Assembly: GCF_030269125.1 (NCBI RefSeq) | Contig: NZ_BSSM01000001.1 | Span: 310,001 to 374,000 of the forward strand | Reading direction: 5' to 3' | Length of the DNA stretch: 64,000 nt | DNA from: Streptomyces hygroscopicus subsp. hygroscopicus | GTDB lineage: Bacteria; Actinomycetota; Actinomycetes; Streptomycetales; Streptomycetaceae | Part shown: piece after piece, positions 4,717 through 34,136 of the stretch | Position numbering within the stretch: position 1 is the stretch's first letter | How the letters are laid out: each line of letters starts with the position of its first letter | Position numbers and translations under genes: made by a program | Notes under the pieces: model-generated | Told to the model about the DNA's origin: nothing | Seen by the model: only the letters and a program-made list of their open reading frames with translations | Database searches by the model: none

Positions 4717-4739
4717 CCTTCACCGGAGAGGACCTGACC

Positions 4740-7723: not shown

Positions 7724-8686
7724 CTACTGCGCCCCGTCCGCCTCCCTGGCCCACTGGCGGACGGGCCGCGCGTCCGGTGCCATGGGGAATCGGAACGGCC
7801 GGCACGGATCGGCCTCGGTCCAGGGCACCAGGGCCCCCTCCGGGTTTCCGGGCGCGGGCAGGTGAGCGGCGAGACGCCGGTACACCTCACCCGCGTGTGC
7901 GGGGCGGTCTCCCGGTTTCTTGGCGAGGAGTTCCAGGACCAGACTTTCGACGTCCTCCGGGGCGTCTGGCCGCAGCGCACGCAGCCGTTCGGGCGCGGCC
8001 TCGGTATGCAGGCCCGGCACCATCAGCGGTGACTCGTGCTCGAAAACCGGTCGGCCGGTCAGCATTTCGTGGATCAGGCAGCCGAGGGCATAGAGGTCCG
8101 TGCGCCGGTCCACGGGCTCGCCCAGCACCTGTTCCGGCGCCATGTACTGGAGGCTGCCGAGCCGTTCTCCGGTCGTGGTGAGCTTGGTGTCCGCGTCGAG
8201 GATGGCGGCGACACCGAAATCCAGCACTTTGACCACGCCGTCGGTGCGGATGCGCACGTTGCCCGGTTTGAGGTCCCGGTGGACGACGCCCCGAGCGTGT
8301 GCGGCGGCCAGCACCGAACAGATCTGTGCCCCGACGGCCGCGGCCTCCTCGATGCTGAGCCTCTCGTGCTCCGCGATGTAGTCCGCGAGATCCAGCCCCT
8401 GGACGTACTGCATGACCAGGTAGTGCGTGCCGGTCTCGACGCCCAGGTCGTACACCGCCGCGAGGCCGGTGTGGTCGAGCCTGGCGACCGCCTTTGCCTC
8501 GCGCTCGAAGCGGGCCGCGTCCTGCGCTACCTGCCGAGCCGTCAGCCCGCCACTGGGAGTCATCGTCTTGACGGCGACACCTCGGCCCAGGTGTTCGTCA
8601 TCCGCCATCCACACCTGCCCCATACCGCCGTGGCCGATGGCGCTCTTGATGCGATAGCGCTTGGCGATGAGCGTTCCGATGTCCAT
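7724..8686 (-). CDS. Soluble Ser/Thr protein kinase (PknB-like, Hanks type)
   Basis: Complete eukaryotic-type kinase domain in 320 residues: glycine loop GHGGMGQVW (about 18-26), VAIK-equivalent lysine AVKTM (about 40), catalytic loop HRDLKPGNV, DFGVA, and GSLQYMAPEQ. All catalytic residues are present. There is no transmembrane helix or PASTA domain, unlike the housekeeping PknB group, so it should act in the cytoplasm on soluble partners. It lies convergent to the pPIWI-RE operon (14 bases apart) and divergent from the helicase/methylase operon that follows, sharing its upstream region. Kinases occur in several defence systems, so a signalling role in the island is possible but is inference; it could equally be an unrelated passenger. 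Confidence 0.9.
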   Translation of the reverse strand: MDIGTLIAKRYRIKSAIGHGGMGQVWMADDEHLGRGVAVKTMTPSGGLTARQVAQDAARFEREAKAVARLDHTGLAAVYDLGVETGTHYLVMQYVQGLDLADYIAEHERLSIEEAAAVGAQICSVLAAAHARGVVHRDLKPGNVRIRTDGVVKVLDFGVAAILDADTKLTTTGERLGSLQYMAPEQVLGEPVDRRTDLYALGCLIHEMLTGRPVFEHESPLMVPGLHTEAAPERLRALRPDAPEDVESLVLELLAKKPGDRPAHAGEVYRRLAAHLPAPGNPEGALVPWTEADPCRPFRFPMAPDARPVRQWAREADGAQ

Positions 8687-8887: not shown

Positions 8888-11800
8888 GTGGACGTCTTCA
8901 AGGTGCACGAGCAGCTGATCGCCGACTACCGGTCCTTCACCACCAGCTCCGTCCTCGTGAAGAACGACCGCATCCAGAACACCGTCGACGAGGCGCTCGT
9001 CCAGGGCGACCAGTGGCCCGACCCGTGGCTGTCGCTCAACCCGAGCTTCGCTCCCGGTGGCACGGTGACCCAGCTCGTGCGGGAGGGGCTGCTGCACCCG
9101 GAGTGCGAGCGGATCTTCCGCGTGGGCAAGGAGAAGGACGGCTCCCTTCAGCAGGGCCGGCCCATCGCCTTCCACCGGCACCAGCGGGACGCCATCGAGG
9201 CCGCCGGCGCCGGCGGCAGCTACGTCCTGACCACGGGCACGGGCTCCGGCAAGAGCCTCGGCTACATCGTGCCGATCGTGAACCAGGTGCTGCGGGCCAA
9301 GCAGGAGGGCACCGCCTCCGGTATCCAGGCGATCATCGTGTATCCGATGAACGCCCTGGCCAACAGTCAGCGGTTCGAGCTGGAGAAGTTCCTGCGTCAC
9401 GGCTACGGGGAGGGCCGGGAGCCGGTCACGTTCGAGCGCTACACCGGGCAGGAGAAGGAGGACGAGCGTGAGCGGATCCTCAAGGAGCTGCCGGACATCC
9501 TGCTGACCAACTACGTGATGCTGGAACTGATGCTCACCCGGCCCCGCGAGCGCAAGGCCCTGATGCGGGCGGCCGAGGGCCTGAAGTTCCTGGTCCTGGA
9601 CGAGCTCCACACCTACCGCGGCCGCCAGGGTGCGGACGTCGCGCTACTCGTGCGCCGGGTCCGTGACGCCTGTGCCGCGCCGGACCTCCAGGTCGTCGGC
9701 ACGTCGGCGACGATGTCCAGCAAGGGCACCCTCCAGGAGCGGCGCCAGGACGTGGCCGACGTCGCGACCACTCTCTTCGCCTCCAAGGTGACGCCGGACC
9801 GCGTGGTGGGCGAGACCCTGGTGCGCGCCACCCGCGACCACGTGCCGAGCGACGCCGAACTGACGGAGCGGATCAAGGCGAACGCGCCCTCGACGGAGTA
9901 CGACGTCCTCAAGGACGACCCGCTCGCCTGCTGGATCGAGACCGAGTTCGGGCTGCGCACGCTCACCGAGGGTCCGGACTCGGGGACGCTCGTCCGGGCC
10001 GAGCCCACGACGGTGGAGAAGGCGGCCCGCGACCTCGCCGAGCGCACCGGCGAGTCGTACGAGGCCTGCGTCGCCGCCATCCGCGACACGCTGCACGCCG
10101 GTTCGCAGGCCAAGGACGACGAGACCGGCCGGCCGCTTTTCGCCTTCCGTCTGCACCAGTTCCTGTCCAAGGGCAGCTCGGTGTACGTGTCTCTGGAGGA
10201 CGAGGAGACCCGGCACATCAGCCGCACCTACCAGCTTCGGGTGCCCGGCGCCAAGGACAAGGTCCTGCTTCCGCTGTCCTTCTGCCGGGAGTGCGGCCAG
10301 GAGTACCTGACCGTCGCCCGCGAGGAACGCAAGGACGGCTCCCTCGCCTTCCGGCCGCGCACCGAGGAGGACGAGGACAACGGCTACCTGTACGTGAGTG
10401 CCGAGCACCCGTGGCCCGACGACACCGGCCGGGCGATCGACGAGCAGCGTTTCCCGGACAGTTGGATCGTGACGGACGACAAGAAGGGCGGCGCCCAGGT
10501 ACTGGCCGACAGCCGGCGCAAGCGGGTGCCGCAGCCGGTGTGGGTCCGGCCCGACGGATCGGTCGTCGACCGCGGGCAGGGCCTGCACGCGGCCTACATC
10601 CCCATGCCGTTCATGTTCTGCCTCAACTGCGGGGTGAGCTACGAGTCCCCGCGCGGCAACGACTTCGGCAAGCTGATGACGATGGACCGCGAGGGCCGCT
10701 CCACGGCGACCTCCCTCATCAGCTCCAGCATCGTGCGCCACCTGAAGGAACTCCCGGCAGACGAGCTCGACGAGGACGCCCGCAAGCTGCTCACCTTCGT
10801 CGACAACCGGCAGGACGCCAGCCTCCAGGCCGGTCACTTCAACGACTTCGTCCTGGTCACCCAGTTGCGGGGCGCCCTCTACCAGGCCATGGTCGAGGCC
10901 GGTGAGGACGGACTGCTGCACGAGGAGCTCGCGCCCGCCGTGGTGGCCAAGCTGGGCCTGCGGCCGCAGAACTACTCCAAGAATCCCAAGGAGGCCTCCC
11001 ATCAGGCGAAGCGCACCCTGCGGGCCCTGACCAAGGTGGTCGAGTACCGGCTGTACCTGGACCTGGAGCGCGGCTGGCGGGTCACCATGCCCAACCTGGA
11101 GCAGACCGGCCTGCTGCGGCTGGAGTACGCGGACCTGCGGGAGATCACCGAGGACGAGGAGCGGTGGACGAAGGCCTGCGGACCGCTGCGGACCGCCGGC
11201 CCCGGCAAGCGCGCGGAGCTCGCCCGGATCTTCTTCGACGAGCTGCGGCGCGTGCGCGCGGTGGACTTCCCCACCTTCGAGCAGGCCGACTTCGACGAGC
11301 TGCGCAAGGTGTCGTACATGCTGAACGACGCCTGGGGGCTGGCCGAGACGGAGCGCACTCCGCCGCCGCCCGGTACCGCGTACGTCCGTCCCGGCCGCCC
11401 CAACCGCGCGCGCACCGAGCTGAACGTCACCGCCCGGGCCGGCTTCGGCCGGTTCCTGCGCAGGCCGGGCCAGTTCCCGGCGCTGGGGCGTCCGCTGGAC
11501 ATGACCGAGACGCAGCAGGTGATCGTCGATCTCGCGGACGTGCTGGCGGAGGCCGGGTTGCTCACCGAGGTACCCACCGGGCGCGGTGAGGAGCCCGGCT
11601 ACCGCATCAACCACACGGCGGTGGTGTGGACGGCCCGCGACGACGAGTTCGGCGCGGTCGACCGGGTGCGCCGGACCTACGGCAAGGACCGCGGCCCGCG
11701 CGTGAACCCGTTCTTCAAGAACCTCTACAAGGAGGTCGCCTCCACGCTCGCCGGCCTGGTCGCCCGGGAGCACACCGCCCAGGTGCCCACGGAGGTCCGC

Positions 11801-14119
11801 GAGGAGCGCGAGGAGGACTTCCGCGACGGCACCAAGCTGCCCCTGCTGTACTGCTCCCCCACCATGGAACTGGGCGTCGACATCGCCAGCCTGAACGCGG
11901 TCGCGATGCGCAACGTCCCGCCGACCCCGGCGAACTACGCGCAGCGCAGCGGCCGTGCCGGCCGGTCCGGCCAGCCCGCGCTGGTCACCACGTACTGCGC
12001 CACGGGCAACAGCCACGACCAGTACTACTTCCGCCGGTCCAACCAGATGGTGGCGGGCGCCGTCGCCCCGCCCCGGCTGGACCTCGCCAACGAGGACCTG
12101 GTCCGCTCGCACGTCCACGCCATCTGGCTCGCCGAGACGGGTCTGGAGCTGGGCAAGCGCATCCCGCACATCCTGGACGCGGCCGGTGAGGCACCTTCGC
12201 TGCGGCTGTTCCCGCACGTGCTCGAGCAGATCCAGGACCCCGCCGCCCAGCGGCGTGCGCTGCGCCGGGCCACCGCGGTCCTCAAGGAGTCGGCGGACCG
12301 CCTCTCCGACACCTCGTGGTGGGACGAACAGTGGCTGGAGCGGACCGTCGACAAGGCGCCGGGGAGGTTCAGGAAGGCGCTGGGCCGCTGGGAGGAGCTG
12401 TTCCGCAAGGCGCTGAAGGAGCGGGAGGTCCAGCACCGGCGCATCCTCGACAACACCCTGAACAAGGACGCCTCCGCCCAGGCCGAGCGCCGCCGGCACC
12501 AGGCGGAGACCCAGCTCAAGCTGCTGAAGAACGAGGAGACCGGCGGCAACAGCCCGCTGTCGGACTTCACGCCGTACCGCTACCTGGCCTCCGAGGGGTT
12601 CCTTCCGGGCTACTCCTTCCCCCGGCTGCCGCTGGCCGCGTTCATCCCCGGCACGGGCCGGGCCGCGCGCGGCGGGCGGGACGGCGACTACCTCCAGCGT
12701 TCCCGCTTCATCGCGATCCGCGAGTTCGGTCCGGGCGCCTTCATCTACCACGAGGGCAGCCGGTTCCAGGTGGACCGCGTCCAGCTTCCGACCAGCGCCG
12801 CGGGGGACCTGCAGACCGAGGAGGCCAAGGTGTGCGAGCGCTGCGGCTACCTGCACGTCGGCGAACAGCTCGAGAACACCTGCGACTCCTGCGGCTCCGA
12901 GCTGACGGAGTCCCGGTACAATCTGCTCCAGCTGCGCACGGTCTTCACCAGGCGCCGGGACCGGATCTCCTCCGACGAGGAGGAGCGGCAGCGCACCGGC
13001 TACGTCGTCGAGGTGTCGTACAAGTTCAACAAGCACGGCGAGCGCGACGGTTCCCTGAACGCGGCCGCCCGCGACGCCGACGGCGCCTCGCTCGCCGCGC
13101 TGACCTACGGCGACAGCGCGACGGTCCGCCTCACCAACCTCGGCTACCGCCGCAGCAGGCAGCGTTCCGGCTTCTGGCTGGACCCGGTCGAGGGCAAGTG
13201 GCTGGACGCCAAGAAGGACCAGGACAAGCCGGGCAAGCAGACCTCCGAGGAGCAGGAGGGCCTGGAGAGCGCGGAGAAGGCCGACCGCAAGGTTCCGGTG
13301 GTCCCCTATGTTCAGGACACCCGCAACATCCTGGTGCTCCAGCTCGCCGAGAAGGTCGCCCCGGACGTGGCGGTGACCCTCCAGTACGCGCTGGAGCGGG
13401 GCATCGAGGCCGAGTTCCAGCTCGAGGACGGCGAGTTGGACACCGAGCAGTTGCCGCCCTACGACGGTCCGCGCGACCGCGTCCTGTTCATCGAGAGCGC
13501 CGAGGGCGGCGCCGGTGTGCTGCGCCGTCTCCAGGCCGAGCCGGACGCCCTGCGCCGTGCCGCCGCCCGCGCTCTGGAGATCGCCCACTTCCACGCGGAC
13601 GGCACCGACAAGGGCGGCCCGGAGGGCGGCCCCGCCTGCGAGATGGGCTGCTACGACTGCCTGCTGTCGTTCGGCAACCAGCGCGACCACCAGGTCATCG
13701 ACCGCAAGCTGGTGCGGGACCTGCTGCTGCGCTTCGCCGGCGCCCGAGTCGCCGGAACCGTCCCCGGCGTCTCCCGCGACGAGCACGCGCAGGCGCTGCT
13801 GGACGGCGCCGACAGCACGCTGGAGCAGCGGTTCGTGGCGTTCCTGACCCGCAACGGGCTGCGGCTGCCGGACAAGCAGCAGTACTTCGTCTCCAGCGCC
13901 CTGTCCCGCCCGGACTTCGTGTACGAGACGAAGGTGGGCCCGGTCGCGGTCTTCATCGACGGCCCGCACCACGACTCGGAGGTGCAGGCGCAGCGCGACG
14001 AGGACGCGCAGGAGCGGCTGTACGACGACGGGTGGGAGGTCATCCGCTTCCGCCACGACGACGACTGGTCCGAGATCGCCCGCAGGTACGGCTCGGTGTT
14101 CGGCGCCGGAGACGACTGA
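8888..14119 (+). CDS. DruE/MrfA-like DEAD-box helicase with DUF1998-type cysteine motif and C-terminal Vsr/DUF559-like nuclease
   Basis: About 1743 residues. Domains in order: DEAD-type ATPase (TTGTGSGKS near residue 115, LDELH near 238), two small zinc clusters (FCRECGQEY near 466, CLNCGVSYE near 578), helicase C domain with YAQRSGRAGRSG (about 1018), another zinc ribbon (CERCGY...CDSCGSEL, about 1316), a DUF1998-like motif CEMGCYDCLLSF (about 1584), and a terminal Vsr/DUF559-like endonuclease (RPDFVY, FIDGPHHDSE, GWEVIRFRHDD; about 1647-1738). The architecture resembles Druantia DruE and the DISARM DrmA/DrmB parts in one chain. GTG 8888 is preferred over the TTG 72 bases upstream because GAGTGAGGG precedes it and the family-like MDVF start follows. 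First gene of an apparent four-gene operon. Confidence 0.85.
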   Translation: MDVFKVHEQLIADYRSFTTSSVLVKNDRIQNTVDEALVQGDQWPDPWLSLNPSFAPGGTVTQLVREGLLHPECERIFRVGKEKDGSLQQGRPIAFHRHQRDAIEAAGAGGSYVLTTGTGSGKSLGYIVPIVNQVLRAKQEGTASGIQAIIVYPMNALANSQRFELEKFLRHGYGEGREPVTFERYTGQEKEDERERILKELPDILLTNYVMLELMLTRPRERKALMRAAEGLKFLVLDELHTYRGRQGADVALLVRRVRDACAAPDLQVVGTSATMSSKGTLQERRQDVADVATTLFASKVTPDRVVGETLVRATRDHVPSDAELTERIKANAPSTEYDVLKDDPLACWIETEFGLRTLTEGPDSGTLVRAEPTTVEKAARDLAERTGESYEACVAAIRDTLHAGSQAKDDETGRPLFAFRLHQFLSKGSSVYVSLEDEETRHISRTYQLRVPGAKDKVLLPLSFCRECGQEYLTVAREERKDGSLAFRPRTEEDEDNGYLYVSAEHPWPDDTGRAIDEQRFPDSWIVTDDKKGGAQVLADSRRKRVPQPVWVRPDGSVVDRGQGLHAAYIPMPFMFCLNCGVSYESPRGNDFGKLMTMDREGRSTATSLISSSIVRHLKELPADELDEDARKLLTFVDNRQDASLQAGHFNDFVLVTQLRGALYQAMVEAGEDGLLHEELAPAVVAKLGLRPQNYSKNPKEASHQAKRTLRALTKVVEYRLYLDLERGWRVTMPNLEQTGLLRLEYADLREITEDEERWTKACGPLRTAGPGKRAELARIFFDELRRVRAVDFPTFEQADFDELRKVSYMLNDAWGLAETERTPPPPGTAYVRPGRPNRARTELNVTARAGFGRFLRRPGQFPALGRPLDMTETQQVIVDLADVLAEAGLLTEVPTGRGEEPGYRINHTAVVWTARDDEFGAVDRVRRTYGKDRGPRVNPFFKNLYKEVASTLAGLVAREHTAQVPTEVREEREEDFRDGTKLPLLYCSPTMELGVDIASLNAVAMRNVPPTPANYAQRSGRAGRSGQPALVTTYCATGNSHDQYYFRRSNQMVAGAVAPPRLDLANEDLVRSHVHAIWLAETGLELGKRIPHILDAAGEAPSLRLFPHVLEQIQDPAAQRRALRRATAVLKESADRLSDTSWWDEQWLERTVDKAPGRFRKALGRWEELFRKALKEREVQHRRILDNTLNKDASAQAERRRHQAETQLKLLKNEETGGNSPLSDFTPYRYLASEGFLPGYSFPRLPLAAFIPGTGRAARGGRDGDYLQRSRFIAIREFGPGAFIYHEGSRFQVDRVQLPTSAAGDLQTEEAKVCERCGYLHVGEQLENTCDSCGSELTESRYNLLQLRTVFTRRRDRISSDEEERQRTGYVVEVSYKFNKHGERDGSLNAAARDADGASLAALTYGDSATVRLTNLGYRRSRQRSGFWLDPVEGKWLDAKKDQDKPGKQTSEEQEGLESAEKADRKVPVVPYVQDTRNILVLQLAEKVAPDVAVTLQYALERGIEAEFQLEDGELDTEQLPPYDGPRDRVLFIESAEGGAGVLRRLQAEPDALRRAAARALEIAHFHADGTDKGGPEGGPACEMGCYDCLLSFGNQRDHQVIDRKLVRDLLLRFAGARVAGTVPGVSRDEHAQALLDGADSTLEQRFVAFLTRNGLRLPDKQQYFVSSALSRPDFVYETKVGPVAVFIDGPHHDSEVQAQRDEDAQERLYDDGWEVIRFRHDDDWSEIARRYGSVFGAGDD

Positions 14120-14169
14120 CCGCGCCCCTCACTCCTCTTCTTCGTACGTCTCTTCCGAAAGGTCCGCCG

Positions 14170-17100
14170 ATGACGCCGCCCACCACCGCCGCTCCCGCCC
14201 GGGACGGCAGCCGGGAGTTCGCGGTCGGTTCGCTCGTGCACGCGCGCGGCCGCGAGTGGGTCGTCCTGCCCGACTCCACCCCCGAGTTGCTCGTCCTGCG
14301 CCCGCTGGGCGGCACGGACGACGACATCGCCGGGGTGCTGCCCGCCCTGGAGGAGGTCGAACACGCCCGCTTCGCCCCGCCGAGCGCCTCCGACCTGGGC
14401 GACCAGGCGGCGGCCGGGCTGCTGCGCAGCGCCCTGCGCATCGGCTTCCGCTCCAGCGCCGGGCCGTTCCGCTCGCTGGCCGGCATCTCCGTGGAACCGC
14501 GCCCGTACCAGCTCGTACCGCTGCTGATGGCACTGCGCCAGGAGACGGTGCGGCTGCTGATCGCCGACGACGTCGGCATCGGCAAGACCGTCGAGTCCGG
14601 TCTGATCGCGGCCGAGCTGCTGGCGCAGGGTGATGCCCGCGGCCTGGTGGTGCTGTGCAGTCCGGCGCTGGCCGAGCAGTGGCGGGCGGAGCTGCGCGGG
14701 AAGTTCGGCATCGACGCCGAGCTGGTCCTGGCGTCGACGATCGGGCGGCTGGAGCGGAGCCGCCTGTACGGCCAGTCGGTGTTCCGCACCGACCGCAACT
14801 ACGTCGTGTCGACCGACTTCATCAAGTCCCCCCGCCACCGGGACGACTTCATCAAGAACTGCCCCGACCTGGTCATCGTCGACGAGGCGCACACGTGCGT
14901 CGCGGACACCGGCCAGGGCGGCGCCCGGCAGCAGCGCCAGCAGCGGTACACCCTGCTGCGCGCGCTCGCCGACGACCCGAACCGCCACCTGCTGCTGGTG
15001 ACGGCGACCCCGCACAGCGGCAAGGAGGAGCCCTTCCGTAATCTGCTGGGGCTGCTGGACGAGCGGCTGGAGACGCTCAGCCTGGACCGGCAGGCGGGCC
15101 GCGACCTGCTCGCGCAGCACTTCGTGCAGCGCCGCCGCGCCGACATCCGGGACGACTTCCGCGAGGACGCCAACTTCCCCAGCGACCGGAAGTCCCGGGA
15201 GGACGACTACACCCTGCACCCCGAATACCGTCGCTTGCTGGAGGAGGTGCTCTCCTACGCCCGGGAGACCGTCCGCAGCGCCGACGGCGCGCTCCAGCAG
15301 CGCATCCGCTGGTGGTCGGCGCTCGCCCTGCTGCGCGCCCTGGGCTCCTCCCCGGCCGCAGTGCGCAAGACCCTCCACACGCGGGCCGGCGTGCAGGACG
15401 CCGACTCGGTGACCGAGGCGGACGCCATCGGCAGCCGGACGGTCACCGACCCGGCCGACGACGAGGCGGCGGAGTCCGCGGACGCCGTCCCCGGCGCGCT
15501 GCTCGCCCCCGGCACGGCCGCCCCGGACGCGATGGCCCTCGACGAGGAGGACAGGGCCCGGCTGCTGGCCATGGCGGAGAGGGCCGAGGCGCTCAAGGGT
15601 CCCGCGAAGGACCGCAAGCTGAAGCAGCTCATCGACACGGTGAGGGAGCTGCTGGACGAGGGCTACAATCCGATCGTCTTCTGCCGTTTCATCTCCACCG
15701 CCGAGTACGTCAAGGAGCACCTCGACGCGGCCCTCAACAAGGGCGGGAAGAGCAGGAAGGGCGCGTCCGGGAAGAAGGCGTACGCCGTCGAGGCGGTCAC
15801 CGGCGAGCTCTCGCCCGACCAGCGCATCGCCCGCATCGCCGCGCTGACGGAGGAGGACGAGGACGGCGAGGCGCCCCCGGAACGCCGCGTCCTGGTCGCC
15901 ACCGACTGCCTCTCCGAGGGCGTGAACCTCCAGGAGAGCTTCGACGCGGTCGTCCACTACGACCTCGCCTGGAACCCGACCCGGCACGAGCAGCGGGAGG
16001 GCCGCGTCGACCGCTTCGGGCAGCGCCGGGACGTCGTCAAGGCGGTCACTCTGTACGGCTCGGACAACGCGATCGACGGCATCGTGCTGGACGTCCTGCT
16101 GCGCAAGCACGCCCGGATCCGCAAGGCGACCGGCATCTCGGTGCCGGTGCCTGACTCCTCCGAGAACGTGATGCAGGCGGTGCTGGAGGGCCTGATCCTG
16201 CGCGGTGAGCGCCCGCAGTACGAGCAAGAGGGCCTGTTCGCGGTGGAGTCGCCGGCCGGCCGGCAGACGGCCGAGCTGCACGAGGCGTGGCAGAGCGCCG
16301 CCGAGCGGGAGAAGGCCTCGCGCTCCCGGTACGCGCAGAACGCGATCAAGCGCGACGAGGTGGCGCAGGAGGTCGCCGAGGTGCGGGCCTCCCTGGGCAC
16401 CGGCGAGGAGGTGCGCCGCTTCGCCCATCACGCCCTCACGGCCCTGCGCGGCGTCCCCGGCACCCTGCCCGGCGAGCCGGACGGCTTCACGATGAACTCC
16501 GAGGCGCTTCCGGCTCCCCTGCGGGACGCCTTCACCACGCTCCTGGGCCCGCGCCACCCCCGCCCGGTGGCCTTCCACGACGCCCCGACCGCCCCGCGCG
16601 GCGAGGTGGCCCTGACCCGCACCGACCCGGTGGTCGCGTCGGTGGCCCGCTTCGTGCTCGACGCGGCGCTGGACGACCGGATGGACCAGTGGCAGCGGCC
16701 CGCCCGCCGCTGCGGAGTGGTCCGTACGACGGCCGTGGCCAAGCGCACCACGCTGCTCCTGGTCCGCTACCGCTTCCAGCTCTCGCTGCCCGGCCGGGAC
16801 GGCGTGCTCCGGCAGCAACTCGCCGAGGACGCCCGCCTGCTGGCCTTCCGGGGGTCGGCGGCGAACCCCGACTGGCTGCCGGAGGACGAAGCGATCGCCC
16901 TGCTGGAGGCCCGGGCCGCCCAGAACACCGACCGCGCCTTCGCCCAGGAGCGCATCGAGGGCGTCCTCGGCTCCCTGGAGTCGCTGATGCCGACGCTGGA
17001 GGAGCGCGGCGAACAGCTCGCGGCGCGCCTCCTCGACTCCCACCGCCGGGTGCGCGGCGCCTTCCGCGACGTGCGCGGCGCGACCGGGCCGGCCCGCCGG

Positions 17101-17205
17101 GGCCTGCGCGTGGACGTCCAGGGCCGCCCCGACGTCCTCGGCGTGTACCACTACCTCCCGGTCCCCGTCCTCGACGGCACGACCACGAACGGGGAAGCCC
17201 GCTGA
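14170..17205 (+). CDS. drmD-like: SNF2-family helicase, DrmD-like
   Basis: About 1011 residues. A conserved N-terminal segment carries a typical pre-helicase motif (RPYQLVPLLMAL). Next come Walker A DDVGIGKTVE (about 134), DEAH box VIVDEAHTCV (about 236) and TATPHSGK. The C-terminal half has LVATDCLSEGVNLQ and the SNF2 motif VI HEQREGRVDRFGQ (about 600). Size, motif set and the adenine methylase immediately downstream match DrmD of class 1 DISARM. It starts 50 bases after the helicase-nuclease and overlaps the methylase start by one base (TGATG), so the three are almost certainly co-transcribed. Presumed DNA translocase controlling access of the nuclease or methylase to DNA; ATPase activity is expected from intact motifs. 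Confidence 0.85.
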   Translation: MTPPTTAAPARDGSREFAVGSLVHARGREWVVLPDSTPELLVLRPLGGTDDDIAGVLPALEEVEHARFAPPSASDLGDQAAAGLLRSALRIGFRSSAGPFRSLAGISVEPRPYQLVPLLMALRQETVRLLIADDVGIGKTVESGLIAAELLAQGDARGLVVLCSPALAEQWRAELRGKFGIDAELVLASTIGRLERSRLYGQSVFRTDRNYVVSTDFIKSPRHRDDFIKNCPDLVIVDEAHTCVADTGQGGARQQRQQRYTLLRALADDPNRHLLLVTATPHSGKEEPFRNLLGLLDERLETLSLDRQAGRDLLAQHFVQRRRADIRDDFREDANFPSDRKSREDDYTLHPEYRRLLEEVLSYARETVRSADGALQQRIRWWSALALLRALGSSPAAVRKTLHTRAGVQDADSVTEADAIGSRTVTDPADDEAAESADAVPGALLAPGTAAPDAMALDEEDRARLLAMAERAEALKGPAKDRKLKQLIDTVRELLDEGYNPIVFCRFISTAEYVKEHLDAALNKGGKSRKGASGKKAYAVEAVTGELSPDQRIARIAALTEEDEDGEAPPERRVLVATDCLSEGVNLQESFDAVVHYDLAWNPTRHEQREGRVDRFGQRRDVVKAVTLYGSDNAIDGIVLDVLLRKHARIRKATGISVPVPDSSENVMQAVLEGLILRGERPQYEQEGLFAVESPAGRQTAELHEAWQSAAEREKASRSRYAQNAIKRDEVAQEVAEVRASLGTGEEVRRFAHHALTALRGVPGTLPGEPDGFTMNSEALPAPLRDAFTTLLGPRHPRPVAFHDAPTAPRGEVALTRTDPVVASVARFVLDAALDDRMDQWQRPARRCGVVRTTAVAKRTTLLLVRYRFQLSLPGRDGVLRQQLAEDARLLAFRGSAANPDWLPEDEAIALLEARAAQNTDRAFAQERIEGVLGSLESLMPTLEERGEQLAARLLDSHRRVRGAFRDVRGATGPARRGLRVDVQGRPDVLGVYHYLPVPVLDGTTTNGEAR

Positions 17206-20200
17206 TGAGCCTCGCGAAGACCATCGTCACCGACTCCGTCCTCACCGTGGGCGGCCTGCTGCCGCCGGACATGCTGACCCGTGTCCGCGACGGCAAGGAT
17301 GTGCCGGGCGCCCAGCCGAAGGACTACGGTCTGTTCGCGGCCAACGACACGGTCCGGGACGCGGCCGAGCGCTCCTGGGCGTACCTGAAGGGCGTGTGGA
17401 CGGCCTACCGGGACTCCCTCGCCAAGGACGGGGCCCTGGACAACGAGGGCATCCCGGCGGTCGGCGTGACCGTCGAGCGCTGGCTGCTGCCCCTGTTCGA
17501 GCAGCTCGGCTACGGCCGCCTGCCCGACGCCCCGGCCGGGGGCCTGCCGTCGGCGGACGGCGAGAAGCGGTTCCCGGTCAGCCACGCCTGGCAGTCCGCG
17601 CCGGTCCACCTGACCGGCTGGAACGTCGACCTGGACCATAGGTCCCCCACCCTTCCCGGCCCTGCCCCGCAGTCACTGCTCCAGGAATACCTGAACCGCA
17701 GCGGCGCGGACACCCTGTGGGGCCTGCTGTCCAACGGCCGGCTGCTGCGCCTGCTGCGCGACTCGACGTCTATGGTCGGCTCGGCGTACGTCGAGTTCGA
17801 CGTCGAGGCGATCTTCGAGGGCGACCGCTTCGCCGACTTCCTGCTGCTGTGGCGCCTGACGCACCGTTCCCGCTTCGAGGCACACGGCGACGGCGGCGCG
17901 GCCGGCTGCTGGCTGGAGCGGTGGCGCACGGAGGCGATCGCCAGCGGCACCCGCGCCATGGAGCAGCTCCGCAAGGGCGTGGAGAAGGCCCTGGTGATCC
18001 TGGGCACCGGCTTCATCCAGCATCGGGACAACGCGGACTTCCGGCGGCGGCTGGACGAGTCCGAGGTGACGGTCCGCGCCATGCACCCGGCGCTCCTCAA
18101 CCTGGTCTACCGCCTGCTGTTCCTTTTCGTCGCCGAGGACCGGAGCCTGCTGATCCCGCCGGACGCCCCCGACGACGCCCGCGAACGCTACGAGAAGTAC
18201 TTCTCCACCGCCCGCCTGCGCCGCACCGCCATCCGCCGCACCGGCGGCCCGCACGGCGACCAGTGGCACGCGCTGCGCCTGGTCCTGGAGGGCCTGGGCC
18301 GGGAGGGCGGCCGGCCCGAGATCGGCCTGCCCGGCCTGGGCGGCCTGTTCGAGCGCTCGGCGGCGGACGCCGTCCTGGACGGCCTGGAGCTGCCGAACGA
18401 GGCGCTGTTCACGGCCGTGCGGGCCCTGTCCGTGGTGATCGACCCCAAGCTGAACCGTCCGCGCCGGGTGGACTACCGCCACCTGGGCGCGGAGGAGCTG
18501 GGCTCCATCTACGAGTCGCTGCTGGAGCTGGTCCCCCGCTTCAACCCGGCGGTCAACTCCTTCGAGCTGCGCACCCTCGCGGGCAACGAGCGCAAGACGA
18601 CCGGCTCGTACTACACGCCGTCGTCGCTGATCGACTGCCTGCTCGACTCGGCCCTGGACCCGGTGATAGACGACGCCGTCAAGTCGGGCGCGACCCGGGA
18701 GGAGCAGGAGGCCGCGCTGCTGCGGCTGACGATCTGCGACCCGGCCTGCGGTTCGGGCCACTTCCTGGTGGCGGCGGCCCGCCGGATCGCCAAGCGGCTG
18801 GCCGCGGTGCGCACGGACTCGCCCGAGCCGAGCGCGGAGGCGACCCGCACGGCGCTGCGGGACGTCATTGGCCGGTGCATCTACGGCGTCGACCTCAACG
18901 AGATGGCCGTGGAACTGGCCAAGGTGTCGCTGTGGATCGAGTCCCTGGAGCCGGGCAAGCCGCTCAGCTTCCTGGACTCCCACATCAAGCACGGCAACGG
19001 CCTGGTGGGCGCCACGCCGAAGCTGCTGGCCGAGGGCCTCCCCGACGACGCCTTCAAGGTGATCGAGGGCGACGACAAGAAGTGGGTCGCCGCGCTGAAG
19101 AAGCGCAACAAGGCCGAGCGGGACGCCTGGAAGGCCCGCCTGGCCGGCGTCCACCAGGGCGAGCTGTTCGGGTCGGCGACGGCGCTGGCGTCCTCCAACA
19201 CGAAGCTGGCGCGCGCCGCGGCGGACATCACGGCGGCGCGGAACGACAAGCTGGAGTACGTCCACGAGCAGCGGGACGCGTACGTGGCGCTGACCCGCGA
19301 CCCCGACTCGGACTACGTACGGGAGCGGGAACTGGCCGATGCGTGGTGCGCCGCGTTCGTCTGGGAGAAGACCCCGGAGGCCGCTCCGCCGCCGCTGACG
19401 CTGGAAGGGCTGCTGAGCCTGCGGGCGGACGGCTGGAAGAAGCTGCCGGAGGGGACGAAGGAGGCGGTCGCCCGGCTGCGGAGCGAGTACCGGTTCTTCC
19501 ACTGGCACCTCGAGTTCCCCGAGGTGTACTCGGTACCCGAGGACACGGACGCCCTGGCGGCGGGCGTGGACGAGCGGACCCGGTGGGGCGGGGGCTTCAG
19601 TTGTGTGCTGGGGAATCCGCCGTGGGAGCGGGTCAAGCTCCAGGAGCAGGAGTTCTTCGCCACCCGCAGCGAGAAGATCGCCACGGCGCCGAACAAGGCG
19701 GCCCGGGAGCGGCTGATCAAGGCACTGGCGACGAGCGAGGAACCGGCGGAGCGGACCCTTCTGACGGACTTCGCCGAGGCCAAGCGCCAGTCGGAGGGCG
19801 TGAGCCACCTGCTGCGCGACTCCGGCCGCTTCCCGCTCGCCGGCCGGGGCGACGTCAACACGTACGCGGTGTTCGCCGAGGCGGCGTCCCTCGGCATCGC
19901 CCCGCAGGGCCGCTTCGGGCTGGTCCTGCCGACGGGCATCGCCACGGACGCGACGACGGCGCCGTTCTTCTCGGACCTGGTACGCAGCGCACGGCTGGCG
20001 TCCTTCCTGGACTTCGAGAACGAGGCGTTCCTGCTGAGCCGGGCGGTGGACCACCGGGTCCGCTTCTGCCTGCTGACGGTCGCGGGCCGCGAGGAACGGG
20101 TGCGGGAGGCTTCGTTCGCCTTCGGCACGCGCTACATGGAGGACCTGCCGAGCCGCCGCTTCGCGATGCCGCCGGAGGAGATCCTGCTGGTCAACCCCAA

Positions 20201-21332
20201 CACGGGGACGCTGCCGGTGTTCCGGTCCCGGCGGGACGCGGAGATCACGCTGGGGATCTACCGCCGGGTGCCGGTACTGATCAGGGAGGGGGACCCGGAG
20301 GGCAACCCGTGGGGCCTGTCGTTCATGAGGATGTTCGACATGTCCAACGACTCGCACCTGTTCCGCTCGCAGGAGCAGTTGGCGTCCGAGGGCTGGACCC
20401 TGAACGGCAACGTCTTCGAGCGGGACGGCCAGCGGTACCTCCCGCTGTACGAGGCGAAGATGCTGCACCACTTCGACCATCGCCTCGGCACGTACGAGGG
20501 GCAGACCGAAGCCCAGGCCAACATGGGCACACTGCCCCGGGTGACGCCGGAGCAGCACGACGATCCCGAGTTCGCGCCGATGCCGCGGTACTGGGTGCCG
20601 GAGTTCGACGTGTTCACCGGCAAGCAGGACAGGAAGGGCAACCCGGTGAGGGAGCCGGGGGTGGCTTCGCGGCTGGCGGAGAAGGGGTGGCACCGTGGTT
20701 GGCTGATGGGGTGGCGGGACATTGCCCGGTCGACCGATACGCGGACGACGATGGCCACGGTGCTTCCTCCGTACGGTATCGGTCACACGTACCCGCTCAT
20801 GTTCCCCGAGAACGCACCCTCCGCAGCCTTTCTGCAAGCGTGCCTGAGCTCGTTCGCATTCGACTACGCCATCCGGCAGAAGATCGTTGGCACACACCTG
20901 ACGTACGGCTACATGTACCAGTTGCCCGTACCGTCGTTGTCCGCCCTCGACGAGCAAGAGCTGGATGTCACCTGGTTCACGAGTCGGGTCACGGAACTCG
21001 TCTATACCTCCAATGACATGGCCGACTTCGCTCGTGACTTGCATGACAGCGGTCCCGCGTTCCGCTGGGACAAGGCTCGCCGCGACCTGCTCCGCGCAGA
21101 GTTGGAAGCCGCCTTCTTCCACCTCTACGGACTCGACAGCGCAGAAGTCGAGCACGTTATGAATACGTTTCCCGTCGTCAAGCGAGAAGACGAGGCTGCC
21201 CACGGCACCTACCGCACCAAAAACCTGATCCTCGACATCTACAACCGCATGGCCGAGGCTCAGCAGACCGGCACCGCCTACCAGACTGTCCTCGACCCGC
21301 CCCCCGGCCAGGGCCCCCGCCACCCGGCGTAA
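17205..21332 (+). CDS. drmMI-like: N6-adenine DNA methyltransferase, DrmMI / type IIG-like
   Basis: About 1375 residues. The SAM-binding motif I DPACGSGHFLVAAA is near residue 512 and the adenine-methylase catalytic motif NPPW at about 804-807, the hallmark of Eco57I/PglX-like gamma-type N6-adenine methyltransferases. GSYYTPSSLIDCLL before motif I is typical. The long C-terminal part is probably the target-recognition region. The N-terminal ~450 residues lack an obvious PD-(D/E)XK site, so this looks like a methylase without its own nuclease. By analogy with DISARM it would mark host DNA as self (family knowledge); the site cannot be read from sequence. Coupled to the SNF2 gene upstream by a TGATG overlap. 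Confidence 0.87.
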   Translation: MSLAKTIVTDSVLTVGGLLPPDMLTRVRDGKDVPGAQPKDYGLFAANDTVRDAAERSWAYLKGVWTAYRDSLAKDGALDNEGIPAVGVTVERWLLPLFEQLGYGRLPDAPAGGLPSADGEKRFPVSHAWQSAPVHLTGWNVDLDHRSPTLPGPAPQSLLQEYLNRSGADTLWGLLSNGRLLRLLRDSTSMVGSAYVEFDVEAIFEGDRFADFLLLWRLTHRSRFEAHGDGGAAGCWLERWRTEAIASGTRAMEQLRKGVEKALVILGTGFIQHRDNADFRRRLDESEVTVRAMHPALLNLVYRLLFLFVAEDRSLLIPPDAPDDARERYEKYFSTARLRRTAIRRTGGPHGDQWHALRLVLEGLGREGGRPEIGLPGLGGLFERSAADAVLDGLELPNEALFTAVRALSVVIDPKLNRPRRVDYRHLGAEELGSIYESLLELVPRFNPAVNSFELRTLAGNERKTTGSYYTPSSLIDCLLDSALDPVIDDAVKSGATREEQEAALLRLTICDPACGSGHFLVAAARRIAKRLAAVRTDSPEPSAEATRTALRDVIGRCIYGVDLNEMAVELAKVSLWIESLEPGKPLSFLDSHIKHGNGLVGATPKLLAEGLPDDAFKVIEGDDKKWVAALKKRNKAERDAWKARLAGVHQGELFGSATALASSNTKLARAAADITAARNDKLEYVHEQRDAYVALTRDPDSDYVRERELADAWCAAFVWEKTPEAAPPPLTLEGLLSLRADGWKKLPEGTKEAVARLRSEYRFFHWHLEFPEVYSVPEDTDALAAGVDERTRWGGGFSCVLGNPPWERVKLQEQEFFATRSEKIATAPNKAARERLIKALATSEEPAERTLLTDFAEAKRQSEGVSHLLRDSGRFPLAGRGDVNTYAVFAEAASLGIAPQGRFGLVLPTGIATDATTAPFFSDLVRSARLASFLDFENEAFLLSRAVDHRVRFCLLTVAGREERVREASFAFGTRYMEDLPSRRFAMPPEEILLVNPNTGTLPVFRSRRDAEITLGIYRRVPVLIREGDPEGNPWGLSFMRMFDMSNDSHLFRSQEQLASEGWTLNGNVFERDGQRYLPLYEAKMLHHFDHRLGTYEGQTEAQANMGTLPRVTPEQHDDPEFAPMPRYWVPEFDVFTGKQDRKGNPVREPGVASRLAEKGWHRGWLMGWRDIARSTDTRTTMATVLPPYGIGHTYPLMFPENAPSAAFLQACLSSFAFDYAIRQKIVGTHLTYGYMYQLPVPSLSALDEQELDVTWFTSRVTELVYTSNDMADFARDLHDSGPAFRWDKARRDLLRAELEAAFFHLYGLDSAEVEHVMNTFPVVKREDEAAHGTYRTKNLILDIYNRMAEAQQTGTAYQTVLDPPPGQGPRHPA

Positions 21333-21361
21333 CCTGACCGCCCCGCCTGAGCACCCCCACC

Positions 21362-21390
21362 GGCGTGCCGCCCGCCCCGGGCGGCACGCC
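21362..21390 (+). terminator. Perfect 12-bp hairpin between methylase and the 550-residue gene
   Basis: GGCGTGCCGCCC (21362-21373) pairs perfectly with GGGCGGCACGCC (21379-21390) around a GCCCC loop. There is no strong U tract, as usual in Streptomyces. It could end the three-gene transcript or act as an attenuator that lowers expression of the downstream gene; the next ATG is only 51 bases away with no separate promoter evident. Confidence 0.6.
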
Positions 21391-21440
21391 GTACTCGGCG
21401 TATCCATCGCCCGTCCACCTCACCGCACAGGCAGCCGCCC

Positions 21441-23093
21441 ATGGAACCGCGCAACTACCGCATGGTCGTCTCGACCAAACAGGACTTCGTCACGGCCTCC
21501 GCCATCGCAGACCGCCAGCTTCACCACTGGCTGGGGGTGATGAAGCGATACGACACCTCGGTTCTGGACGAGGGGCGCAATGAGATTGCCGAGGGAGTGA
21601 CCCTCGACTACGACACTGTGTCCGGCCGGCACGGCGCCTACTCCCGCTGGCGCCTGCGCGAGTGGAAGGAGCGGCCGGTTCCGGGCACCTGGCAGTCCAC
21701 CCTCGTCGTCCGCTCGGACCCCCGGGAGGACGACCGCCGGACCTGGATCCAGGTCGACATCGAACACCTTCCGGCGTCATCGGACGTACGGCCCGTCCCC
21801 GCCAACACCCCCGGTATATCCAAGCTGCTGCTCGACGCGCTCGACGCCCAGGACGGCCTCGCCGACGTCGGCACGGTCCCGAAGTTCATCGAGCCGGACG
21901 ACGTGGAGGAGGTGATCGAGGAACTCTGCGACCTGGACCGCCGGCTCCCCATCGTCGTGGCGAGCGTGCCCTACGGACAGGACGCGGAAGCCTGGACCGA
22001 GAGGGTCGTCGAACCCGCCTTCAAGCACCTCACCGGCATCGCCGTGATGTACGTGCTCCCCACGGACGCCCAGCAACTGTTCGAGAGAACCTTCGACTAC
22101 CACCGCGTCTTCGGCGGCGGCATCCGCACCTACCTCCCCGGCGTGGATCCGGCCTGGCAGCCCGACGCCCAACGCCACCCGGTGATGTCGCGGGCCACGC
22201 TGGAGGCGAACCCGAAACGGGCGGCGGCCATACTCGCCGCCCTCCCCCAGCGGTTAGCCCTGCGCCTGCCGCTCCCCGGCCCACTGGACAACCTGCCCGT
22301 CCAGCGCACCCGCCCCCGCCCGGCGGCCCACGGCTCGAGCCTGAACGAACTCCGCGCGGAGAACGCCACCCTGACCAAGATGCTCGCCGAGGCGGAACAG
22401 CGGGAGGACGCCAACGCGGACGTCCTGCGCGACCTGCGCCAGCAGCTCCAGATCGCCGAGGAGCTGGAGTTCGACCAAGCCGCCGAGAACCAGGACCTCT
22501 ACGCCAAGCTCAAGCACGCCGAGCGGCAGGTACGGGCTCTTCAGGTTCGACTGGAAAGGGCGGGTCAGCACGACCTCGCGCACACACCCATCGAGGAACC
22601 CGCCGACTACCCGGCCACCTTCGCGAAGATCCTCGATCGGATGGGCGAGTTCCGTCACCTGCGTTTCACGGGCAACCGGAAGATCACAAAGGAACTCGAT
22701 GCCCAGTGCATCGGTAACTGGGTCGAGGTCGCCTGGGATGCTCTCCACACCCTCAACGACTACGCCGCCGCGTCAACCGCCGGAACGGCGGGCGGCGACT
22801 TCCGCTACTGGTGCTCCCACCTGCCGGACGACTGCGAGCACCCCTTCCCGGCGGGCAAGGTCAAGATGAAGGAGTCCAAGACCGTCGGGAGCCGCGAGGA
22901 CTGGCGCCGTGAGCGCACGTTCCCGGTTCCCGAGGCCGTCGACGCGAGCAAGAAGCTGTTCATGGAAGCCCACCTCCGCATCGGCGGCGGCAACACGGTG
23001 GCCCCCCGGCTCTACTTCCACGACGACGGCCCCAACACCGGTTTCGTGTACGTCGGTTACTTGGGCCCGCACCCGACCAACACGAAGACCTAA
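21441..23093 (+). CDS. Unrecognised 550-residue protein with central coiled coil, last gene of the helicase/methylase operon
   Basis: I do not recognise the family. The N-terminal ~280 residues are a mixed alpha/beta region rich in conserved-looking W/R positions (RWRLREWKERP, RTWIQVDIEHLP). About residues 299-375 form a strong heptad coiled coil (ELRAENATLTKMLAEAEQ, then ELEFDQAAENQDLYAKLK). The C-terminal ~150 residues form a second globular domain containing WVEVAWDALHTLNDYA and a YWCSHLPDDCEH cysteine/histidine cluster. No ATPase, nuclease or methylase motif is visible. Same strand and 108 bases after the methylase, behind a hairpin. The two-domains-around-coil plan would suit a DNA-binding or oligomeric sensor or specificity subunit, which is inference only. 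Confidence 0.7.
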   Translation: MEPRNYRMVVSTKQDFVTASAIADRQLHHWLGVMKRYDTSVLDEGRNEIAEGVTLDYDTVSGRHGAYSRWRLREWKERPVPGTWQSTLVVRSDPREDDRRTWIQVDIEHLPASSDVRPVPANTPGISKLLLDALDAQDGLADVGTVPKFIEPDDVEEVIEELCDLDRRLPIVVASVPYGQDAEAWTERVVEPAFKHLTGIAVMYVLPTDAQQLFERTFDYHRVFGGGIRTYLPGVDPAWQPDAQRHPVMSRATLEANPKRAAAILAALPQRLALRLPLPGPLDNLPVQRTRPRPAAHGSSLNELRAENATLTKMLAEAEQREDANADVLRDLRQQLQIAEELEFDQAAENQDLYAKLKHAERQVRALQVRLERAGQHDLAHTPIEEPADYPATFAKILDRMGEFRHLRFTGNRKITKELDAQCIGNWVEVAWDALHTLNDYAAASTAGTAGGDFRYWCSHLPDDCEHPFPAGKVKMKESKTVGSREDWRRERTFPVPEAVDASKKLFMEAHLRIGGGNTVAPRLYFHDDGPNTGFVYVGYLGPHPTNTKT

Positions 23094-23117: not shown

Positions 23118-23312
23118 TCAGCGTTCCTCGGCGAACCGCACGAACGCGGCCCACTCCCCTGCGGTGACAGTGAGTTGGGCACGGGCGGGCGCCTTGGAGT
23201 CACGGATGTGGATGATGCCGGGCGTGACGGCGACCTCCAGGCATTCGCCACCCTCGTTGCCGCTGTAGCTGCTCTTGAACCAGGCGCGGGGAGCGGATTC
23301 CGCAGCACTCAT
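23118..23312 (-). CDS. DUF397 small protein
   Basis: 64 residues with the actinobacterial DUF397 signature: WFKSSYSGNEGGECLEVA near the start, RDSK in the middle, and WAAFVRFA at the end. It follows the XRE gene with an ATGA overlap. DUF397 proteins are usually partners of XRE/DUF5753 regulators in Streptomyces (BldB/WhiJ-like loci), as here. Biochemical function is unsettled. Confidence 0.93.
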   Translation of the reverse strand: MSAAESAPRAWFKSSYSGNEGGECLEVAVTPGIIHIRDSKAPARAQLTVTAGEWAAFVRFAEER

Positions 23313-24172
23313 AGCTCTGCCACCATCTTCTCGATCAAGGCAAGGGACTCCTGCATCGTAAGGGCCTGCGCCCTGATGCTGCCGTACCGCGCGGCAAGGA
23401 TGCGGACTTCCTCGACATCCGTGACCAGTCGGCTGGAGCTCTGCGCCTCGACATACCCCAGCTGAGGCTTCCCCTTGGGGGTCAGCAGGATGAAGGATCC
23501 ACCCATTCCTGCGTGCTGGGTACGCCCGGTCGGCATCACTTGCAGTTCTACGTTGCGCAGTCGGGCCAGTCGAAGTAGTTGCTCCAACTGTTCCCTGTGA
23601 ACGTCCCGCTCACCGAGTGGGCGTTGCAGGACCACTTCCTCAACTACAGCCGTGATCATCGGCGGGGGCCACTGGGTGAGGATGTCTTGCCGCGCCAGCC
23701 GGGAAATTACCCGCTGCTCTACCGTTTCCTCGTCCAGCAGCGGCTTACGCATCTCGTACAAGGCCCGGATCCGCCGTTCGGTCTGAAACAGGCCGGGGAC
23801 GTCATGGCAGTTGTAGAAGTCGATCTCAACCGCCTCCCGCTCCAACCGCGCATAGTCCCGGAACCAGGCAGGATGCCGAACCCGCGCCTTCGCCTTGGCC
23901 CTCTCCACGTCCTCGATCGTGGCCCGCAGCAACCCGTCCGCATCCAACAGCTCATCCGCCGCCTCCAGGAACTCCCGCTGCGGCGTCCGCCTCCCCCGTT
24001 CCAGCGAGGAGACGAGGTCCTCGCTGTACCCGAGCCGGTCCCCCAGCTCCCGCTGTGTGAGCCCGGCCCGTTCCCGGAGCAGCTTGACCTGCTTGCCCAC
24101 CGCACGCATCAGGTCACCGCTCAACTCCCCCTCGTCGTAGGCTTCCTGCGCCTCCACCACCGCCTCCGACAC
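23309..24172 (-). CDS. XRE-family helix-turn-helix regulator with DUF5753 domain
   Basis: 287 residues. The N-terminal HTH (about 28-85: LRERAGLTQRELGDRLGYSE, then SLERGRRTP) binds DNA. The C-terminal DUF5753-like domain (about 110-285) contains FYNCHDVPGLFQTE and GGSFILLTPKG. It is translated just ahead of the DUF397 partner and stands divergent from a HATPase gene, the usual WhiJ-type trio. Such trios tune development or stress responses; one sitting between two defence modules might regulate them, which is inference. Confidence 0.93.
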   Translation of the reverse strand: MSEAVVEAQEAYDEGELSGDLMRAVGKQVKLLRERAGLTQRELGDRLGYSEDLVSSLERGRRTPQREFLEAADELLDADGLLRATIEDVERAKAKARVRHPAWFRDYARLEREAVEIDFYNCHDVPGLFQTERRIRALYEMRKPLLDEETVEQRVISRLARQDILTQWPPPMITAVVEEVVLQRPLGERDVHREQLEQLLRLARLRNVELQVMPTGRTQHAGMGGSFILLTPKGKPQLGYVEAQSSSRLVTDVEEVRILAARYGSIRAQALTMQESLALIEKMVAEL

Positions 24173-24307
24173 GACTGCCCCCTTGTCTCAGGCTTGTCTC
24201 AGACACGACCGACACCCCGCACACGGCACCTTCCGTGTCGGTACGGGCACCCTCCGTACCGGGGGATGTGCTGGTCAGAGTAGAGCGGACCGACCACGCT
24301 CGGTGAC

Positions 24308-24736: not shown

Positions 24737-24839
24737 CGGCGAATGCGAGACAGTCTGTCCACAGACGGGCACACACCGTGGACAACCCCCCGGGGAGGTG
24801 GAGAGAATTCCGATCACGCTGTGGGGGAAGGACGTACCG

Positions 24840-34130: not shown

Positions 34131-34136
34131 TGATTG

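Follow-up and report, generated by a model that had tools for sequence, protein, structure and literature searches.

An ARMADA type I-like gene set of Streptomyces hygroscopicus with a divergent kinase and a linked accessory protein

Gene content of the locus

The 64,000 nucleotides of Streptomyces hygroscopicus subsp. hygroscopicus DNA considered here (contig NZ_BSSM01000001.1 of assembly GCF_030269125.1, positions 310,001 to 374,000; "the window", in whose positions all coordinates are given) carry a putative defence locus. It consists of genes for a YprA-family helicase, an SNF2-type ATPase, a PglX-like DNA methylase and a 550-residue protein designated P0004, together with a Hanks-type Ser/Thr kinase gene that diverges from the helicase, 201 bases from its start (Table 1). 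The first three genes have the order of ARMADA type I, one of the layouts of a system described in 2025 (Bell et al. 2025, PMC12458937). New beyond the main text of that paper are the association with a kinase and the toxin-like partner P0004, the core itself being already named.

The host assembly comprises 8.5 Mb across 92 contigs. At about 70% G+C, the value found for the window, long open reading frames arise cheaply; each of genes 1 to 4 is favoured by codon usage in the gene caller and has full-length homologues. The original prediction of four same-strand genes spaced by 50, -1 and 108 bases is confirmed, all on the plus strand. The kinase lies outside the coordinates of that prediction and was missing from its picture of a composite locus, which is supported in part. 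For gene 1 the GTG at 8888 is used as the start; the mechanical reading frame opens at TTG 8816, and the gene caller chose 8849. Gene calls in the loci retrieved for comparison come from a purpose-written codon-usage script, a non-standard gene finder, and cluster labels in the class-sample and named-genome loci are best BLAST matches.

Table 1. Positions of the genes, motifs and neighbouring features in the window
Feature	Position	Strand	Basis
Gene 1, YprA-family helicase (ARMADA type I, ArmC-like), 1743 residues	8888..14119	+	Pfam/PADLOC, motifs
PD and IDG motif-like residues, C-terminal end of gene 1	13907..13972		
Gene 2, SNF2/RapA/BrxHII-like ATPase (ArmA-like), 1011 residues	14170..17205	+	Pfam/PADLOC/NCBIfam, motifs
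Walker A motif, gene 2	14566..14589		
DEAH motif, gene 2	14878..14892		
Gene 3, PglX/DrmMI-like N6-adenine DNA methylase (ArmB-like), 1375 residues	17205..21332	+	Pfam/PADLOC, motifs
S-adenosylmethionine (SAM) motif, gene 3	18735..18758		
NPPW motif, gene 3	19611..19625		
Hairpin with 14-bp stem, between methylase and P0004 genes	21361..21391	+	
Gene 4 (P0004), multi-domain accessory protein (PADLOC HEC-07-like), 550 residues	21441..23093	+	PADLOC, homologues
Thioredoxin-like fold without CxxC, P0004 residues 129-277	21825..22271	+	
Long helix, predicted coiled coil, P0004 residues 300-373	22338..22559	+	
C-terminal domain, RelE-like by model, P0004 residues 388-550	22602..23090	+	
Hanks-type Ser/Thr kinase, divergent from helicase	7724..8686	-	
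pPIWI-RE system (PprRE, PprDinG, PprPIWI)	15..7709		
DUF397, XRE/DUF5753 and HATPase genes	23118..24736		
PDC-M23A/B pair	24798..28836		
Small protein, weak RAMA match	29604..29981		
3' end of tRNA-Leu	near 34136		

The core genes and ARMADA type I

Gene 1 matches the Pfam families DEAD (89.7 bits), Helicase_C (50.5 bits) and MZB/DUF1998 (33.5 bits), all above cut-off, and several CxxC pairs are visible in the helicase. Its C-terminal end is, judging by sequence, likely a Vsr-type nuclease; the matches there to MTES_1575 (17.2 bits) and DUF559 (15.6 bits) both lie below the Pfam cut-off. Among PADLOC profiles, to which no cut-off was applied here, those of DruE score highest (357 bits, partial). 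Alignments of the helicase with those of four kinase-less actinobacterial cassettes span almost the whole protein at 47-55% identity; with the single Brachybacterium type II helicase that was compared, the alignment covers only 217 residues at 38%.

For gene 2 the best PADLOC profile is PDLC02853, labelled DpdE, with 1122.5 bits over the full length, compared with 278.3 bits for DrmD. The corresponding NCBIfam scores fall below their cut-offs: 318.9 bits for DrmD (cut-off 610) and 164.9 bits for DpdE (500 required). No further Dpd gene is the best match of any gene scanned with PADLOC (window 15-23093 and 24798-28836, the scope of all PADLOC searches of neighbours given below). Since PDLC02853 covers the whole of an ARMADA SNF2 protein, PADLOC may report ARMADA I as Dpd. 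The best profile for gene 3 is DrmMI (198 bits, partial), and the Pfam families Eco57I and N6_Mtase are matched above cut-off. Earlier readings of the single genes hold in part. The fusion of DEAD helicase, DUF1998 and Vsr/DUF559-like nuclease in gene 1 stands for the helicase and MZB parts, its nuclease end falling under the cut-off; DrmD is matched by gene 2 more weakly than had been claimed, and DrmMI by gene 3 over part of its length. Gene 4, previously called unrecognised, has no Pfam family above cut-off, and a partial PADLOC match can now be given for it.

In the published account, ARMADA type I generally has the YprA helicase first, the BrxHII-like ATPase next and the PglX-like methylase last, with a Vsr-type end (PMC12458937). 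Further marks of the type are a place in the type I clade of the YprA tree and a helicase with a BrxA-like insert, a beta-barrel zinc module and an HTH that bears a coiled-coil finger. Among 150 genomes of the same genus, 23 are helicase-positive and yield 25 helicase genes, and the order helicase-SNF2-methylase is the same at 23 of these 25 loci; the two exceptions are at a contig edge (G129) or have no called methylase (G021b). There is little doubt that genes 1 to 3 stand in the ARMADA type I layout, a name that the original prediction had raised as a possibility. The protection shown in the ARMADA paper is that of one type II system and of no type I system (PMC12458937).

Linkage of P0004 to ARMADA genes

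Relatives of P0004 (E <= 1e-20) occur in 19 of the 150 same-genus genomes, 12 of which have one with at least 49% identity. In 11 of these 12 close-copy genomes, all but G025, P0004 shares its contig and strand with an ARMADA helicase situated 7-29 kb upstream; the hypergeometric probability of this co-occurrence is 1e-9, with the genomes treated as independent. The original prediction had made its case depend on helicase and fourth gene being linked across genomes, as they prove to be. P0004 is placed near the methylase at five loci, directly after it in the window, G116 and G110 and with one gene between in G077 and G084. At the other six it is 20-29 kb from the helicase, within a cassette of an SMC/LmuB-like ATPase (c11), a 132-residue protein (c12), P0004, McrB-like, McrC-like and GajB-like genes and a convergent methylase; these names derive from the scan of one locus (G023), and G384 shows the same arrangement.

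A second set, 38 loci from named genomes, overlaps the 150-genome sample, so the two are not independent; L157, in which no P0004 was called, is excluded from it. ARMADA genes lie within the 10-kb upstream flank at 19 of the 38, of which 13 have all three genes, four have a methylase fragment or a contig edge, and two are from Brachybacterium. In both Brachybacterium loci the order is SNF2, methylase, YprA, GajB-like and, after a 248-residue protein in one of them, the P0004 homologue, which is the order of ARMADA type II. In G363 a homologue follows HmaA, HmaB and HmaC.

Distances between P0004 proteins follow those between SNF2 proteins closely (Mantel r 0.92) at the 14 loci in which P0004 stands close after the methylase; the comparison of SNF2 with methylase at these loci gives 0.77. 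These tests use protein distances only, with no species-tree control, and were made on the 22 loci that have both proteins, after removal of three named-genome loci duplicating G077, G084 and G110 and of loci with an incomplete P0004.

On this evidence P0004 seems, by a modest preference, to work together with ARMADA. Several observations weigh against it. P0004 is optional, being found near the helicase in 12 of the 23 helicase-positive genomes (11 close matches and one that is distant and on the other strand); no ARMADA gene lies in the flank of 19 of the 38 named loci; and over all 22 loci the Mantel correlation falls to 0.45. The gap between the methylase and P0004 genes also holds a hairpin, which weakens the claim of one simple operon. 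Such points would be expected if P0004 were an independent defence gene occupying the same island hotspot as ARMADA, in a variable slot that collects defence genes, and the slot does vary: after the methylase comes, by locus, a member of cluster c14 or c44, a gene for an EcsC, PASTA or DNA-methylase-like protein, or a gene on the opposite strand, and the proteins encoded there include one of 416 residues and a small basic one. The remote cassette beside McrBC-like genes fits the same idea. Set against it are the co-occurrence just given, with all 11 linked copies on the strand of the helicase, the high correlation at the close-placed loci, and the pairing of P0004 relatives with ARMADA II and with Hma, both of them systems of SNF2 and adenine methylase. 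A free-standing P0004 is thus a serious possibility, to which we give about one chance in three expressed loosely, and joint action with ARMADA is kept as the working view.

Folding of the whole gap between the methylase and P0004 genes gives -49.2 kcal/mol (z -4.1). No T-run follows the stem of the hairpin at 21361-21391 and the terminator scan gives no flag there. Hairpins with changed letters occur at the same place in G116 and L121, and the fold in L120 is weaker. The structure may end transcription, act as an attenuator that holds P0004 levels down, or form a stem at the end of the message.

Two loci carry 108-residue remnants of the end of an ARMADA methylase before an intact P0004 (L119:8771-9097 and L131:8875-9201), as if ARMADA had been swapped out and P0004 kept; the genome of L119 has an ARMADA helicase elsewhere. 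In several genomes of the class sample (f17; loci L165, L166, L168, L174, L175, L180 and L181) a P0004 homologue lies in a similar neighbourhood without ARMADA, the likeness being judged from gene lengths and, for two of them, protein starts. These homologues may have a housekeeping role.

Domains and predicted fold of P0004

P0004 belongs to an actinobacterial family of proteins that have, besides a C-terminal domain, a beta-rich region, a thioredoxin-like fold and a coiled coil. Its relatives in the database number at least 211, 120 of which were listed, among the 7995 scored candidates that share the most words with it; the alignments used contain 45 sequences (A1, P0004 with 44 of the listed relatives), 73 (A2) and 29 (A3). 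In PADLOC, residues 117-390 of the 550 match HEC-07 with 74.7 bits and residues 391-544 match NsnC with 31 bits; the term HEC-07 was not found in the literature searched.

The C-terminal domain carries five polar residues, E478, R492, H511, R523 and H544, none of which varies in more than one of 111 homologues, and this near-invariance makes them look like an active site. The model of the domain resembles the RelE/YoeB/YafQ toxins; its structure matches are nearly all of this one toxin kind and cover the whole fold. On moderate evidence, that of the structure model, the domain may be called RelE-like, and that it acts as a RelE-like RNase is a tentative proposal, a little short of an even chance. 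Profile comparisons are silent on this relation. The C-domain profile gave no match to a YoeB profile of 13 sequences or to the N-terminal domain of GajB-like proteins, the alignments being shallow in both cases, and had two chance-level matches only among PDB sequences; the profile of whole P0004 found mostly coiled coils there (best E 0.0039). Foldseek with the whole P0004 model returned nothing at E <= 0.001, and the viral structure library no significant match. The N-termini of two GajB-like proteins likewise had no clear toxin match, so their RelE-like label rests on the ARMADA paper (PMC12458937).

The domain might instead serve for binding or sensing, its fold being unrelated or decayed, P0004 then being an adaptor that links the motors to their target and no RNase at all. 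The conserved polar residues and the coverage of a whole toxin fold by matches of nearly one kind both speak against such an adaptor, which is considered unlikely. A conditional RNase is retained for the model below.

Proteins of some 420-460 residues from actinobacterial family f19 (L104, L105 and L107-L109) match mainly the N-terminal half of P0004. Two named genomes, at L139 and L145, have a P0004 gene broken into two frames, through decay of the copies or sequencing errors.

The divergent and the fused kinase

In 21 of the 25 same-genus helicases the N-terminal 300 residues or so form a Ser/Thr kinase domain that has 39.6-43.5% identity with the separate kinase of the window. The four helicases that lack it are those of the window, G116, G021b and G146, the last of which begins 70 bases from a contig end; a divergent neighbouring kinase is present in the other three. 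The same holds for S. radicis, with a helicase 90% identical to that of the window, and for S. tibetensis, with one that is 85% identical. Within the short-helicase group, a separate divergent kinase was thus found at five of five loci with an examined upstream flank, a count that leaves out two further short helicase frames (G450 and G443). The class sample has 27 helicase-positive genomes; G000, G012 and G384 were covered by other searches, and fragmentary loci (G228, G233, G280, G383) and a second copy in G374 were left out. Of the 20 loci retrieved from it, eight have the kinase fusion and 12 have no window-related kinase in the retrieved flank, which is short in some.

In a tree of the helicase bodies (44 rows, a quick method with SH-aLRT, the Shimodaira-Hasegawa-like approximate likelihood ratio test, as the only support; G341 excluded for a broken gene call) the clade of the window is sister to the fused clade and the other helicases fall outside. 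In the kinase tree a paralogue from another part of the same genome is grouped with the window kinase, outside the fused clade, which speaks against a single recruitment of the kinase. A recent split of the window kinase from the fused form was considered and is disfavoured, the helicase clade being sister to the fused one and the kinase grouping with the paralogue. Either way, a kinase became attached to this helicase in cis, in one early event or repeatedly.

These data make it reasonably probable that the kinase is a working part of the system. It could also be an ordinary housekeeping kinase, or belong to the neighbouring pPIWI-RE system, and so stand outside ARMADA. The genome has 38 other kinase-like matches; beyond its two orthologues in the tree, the closest relative of the window kinase is the paralogue elsewhere; and the pPIWI-RE system ends 14 bases before the kinase stop. 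Yet in G021b, where the kinase is next to the helicase, that flank contains no pPIWI-RE gene, all five short-helicase loci with an examined flank have it, and sister loci carry the kinase within the helicase chain itself. A role outside ARMADA is given a low probability, about that of the adaptor reading of P0004, and the kinase is included in what follows as a component.

The ARMADA paper makes no mention of a "kinase" anywhere in its main text (PMC12458937), and no kinase-helicase fusion is described in the titles and abstract beginnings of the literature matches listed. A second kinase with a long C-terminal tail (L204, G000:C1:307184-308146) lies about 1.9 kb before the window, and a kinase related to it precedes a pPIWI-RE gene in G021b.

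Proposed mechanism

The core, the divergent kinase and P0004 can be combined, tentatively and with somewhat less than even confidence in the whole, into a defence that marks its own DNA, cuts phage DNA, is switched by the kinase and has an RNA-cutting second stage. This reading starts from an established gene content and order, the motifs, the recurrent kinase fusion, and the linkage and conservation of P0004. The methylase would modify host DNA as a self mark, as expected of PglX-type methylases. PglW is the kinase of the Streptomyces Pgl/BREX-2 system, and by analogy with it the kinase may phosphorylate the helicase or its partners on sensing infection and so set the active state. Analogy with ARMADA type II and the usual action of such motors suggest that the SNF2 and YprA proteins would move along invading DNA that lacks the modification, bringing the nuclease with them, and that the Vsr-like end would cut the unmarked phage DNA; type II defence is described as direct and non-abortive (PMC12458937). 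P0004 might dock through its N-terminal and coiled-coil parts, its C-terminal domain being a conditional RNase stage that is restrained until triggered and that may supply the role of the RelE-like domain of ArmD in ARMADA type II.

A broader version, in which actinobacterial ARMADA I is kinase-gated and P0004 is a portable RelE-like RNase serving as second-stage killer in ARMADA I, ARMADA II and Hma, is doubtful at present. If the kinase and P0004 do belong, the type I systems of Streptomyces would be a signalling-controlled form of restriction that combines YprA helicases with the kinase logic of Pgl/BREX, and several helicase-methylase defences would have an accessory family in common. The parts on which this can be tested are the kinase, residues R523 and H544 of P0004, and the hairpin between genes.

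Comparison with known systems

The resemblance to ARMADA type I extends to the YprA helicase in first place with DUF1998 and a probable Vsr-like end, the BrxHII/RapA-like SNF2 protein and the PglX-like methylase (PMC12458937), to which the window adds the Ser/Thr kinase, divergent here and fused at most same-genus loci, and P0004. ARMADA type II shares three homologous enzymes and a fourth gene with a RelE-like domain, but its order is SNF2, methylase, YprA and ArmD (PMC12458937), and in the window the order differs and the next gene is P0004 rather than a GajB-like one. As described in the same main text, ArmD joins a RelE-like domain to a GajB-like helicase, whereas P0004 lacks a helicase part and carries the toxin-like domain at its C-terminal end. 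DISARM class 1 has SNF2, PglX-like enzymes and a YprA-type helicase; where the window has a single chain, it encodes helicase and DUF1998 in separate genes, and a phospholipase D (PLD) nuclease is typical of it (PMC12458937). No DrmB or DrmC profile was found among the genes scanned with PADLOC. The helicase resembles that of Druantia in its DruE matches; the SNF2 and methylase genes are a difference, and the Druantia partners DruH, DruABCD and DruMFG are absent among the PADLOC-scanned neighbours. The original prediction that the set fits neither DISARM nor Druantia is upheld on these grounds. A novel combination of DISARM and Druantia components is, in spite of the DruE, DrmD and DrmMI matches of genes 1 to 3, a most improbable reading of the set, since the same-order cassette was named ARMADA type I in 2025 (PMC12458937), so that the core is already known, and no drmB, drmC, druH or druABCD profile is found in the PADLOC-scanned genes.

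Dpd, which calls for a DpdE equivalog together with 7-deazaguanine genes, is set apart by the score of gene 2, under the NCBIfam DpdE cut-off. HEC-07 and Hma share with the locus the P0004 match and the homologue after HmaABC in G363, the HEC-07 match being partial. The Pgl/BREX-2 system of Streptomyces is a defence that includes a kinase and a PglX-like methylase, both of which recur here in the same genus; the core of the window is instead a helicase-nuclease, and no PglZ or PglY profile was found among the genes scanned with PADLOC.

Neighbourhood of the island

The three genes of the pPIWI-RE system lie directly upstream of the kinase. Downstream is the PDC-M23A/B pair, a candidate defence in which B is a HamB-like helicase (1328 bits); its homologues occur near P0004 also in G116, L121 and L123. 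To the right of the island genes is a small protein whose RAMA match is below cut-off. As for integration at tRNA-Leu, the 3' end of the tRNA occurs just once in the window; its single exact match in the rest of the genome (C19) proves nothing on integration.

At eight of the 20 class-sample loci (L183, L185-L188 and L190-L192) a kinase-less ARMADA I set is directly followed by an McrB-like gene, with an McrC-like gene as well where the flank reaches. This fits the link noted for a DISARM-like cassette beside McrBC (Bell 2024, PMC11090510). A homologue of the XRE gene that lies between P0004 and the PDC-M23 pair is present at 20 of the 25 same-genus ARMADA loci and is possibly a regulator of the island.

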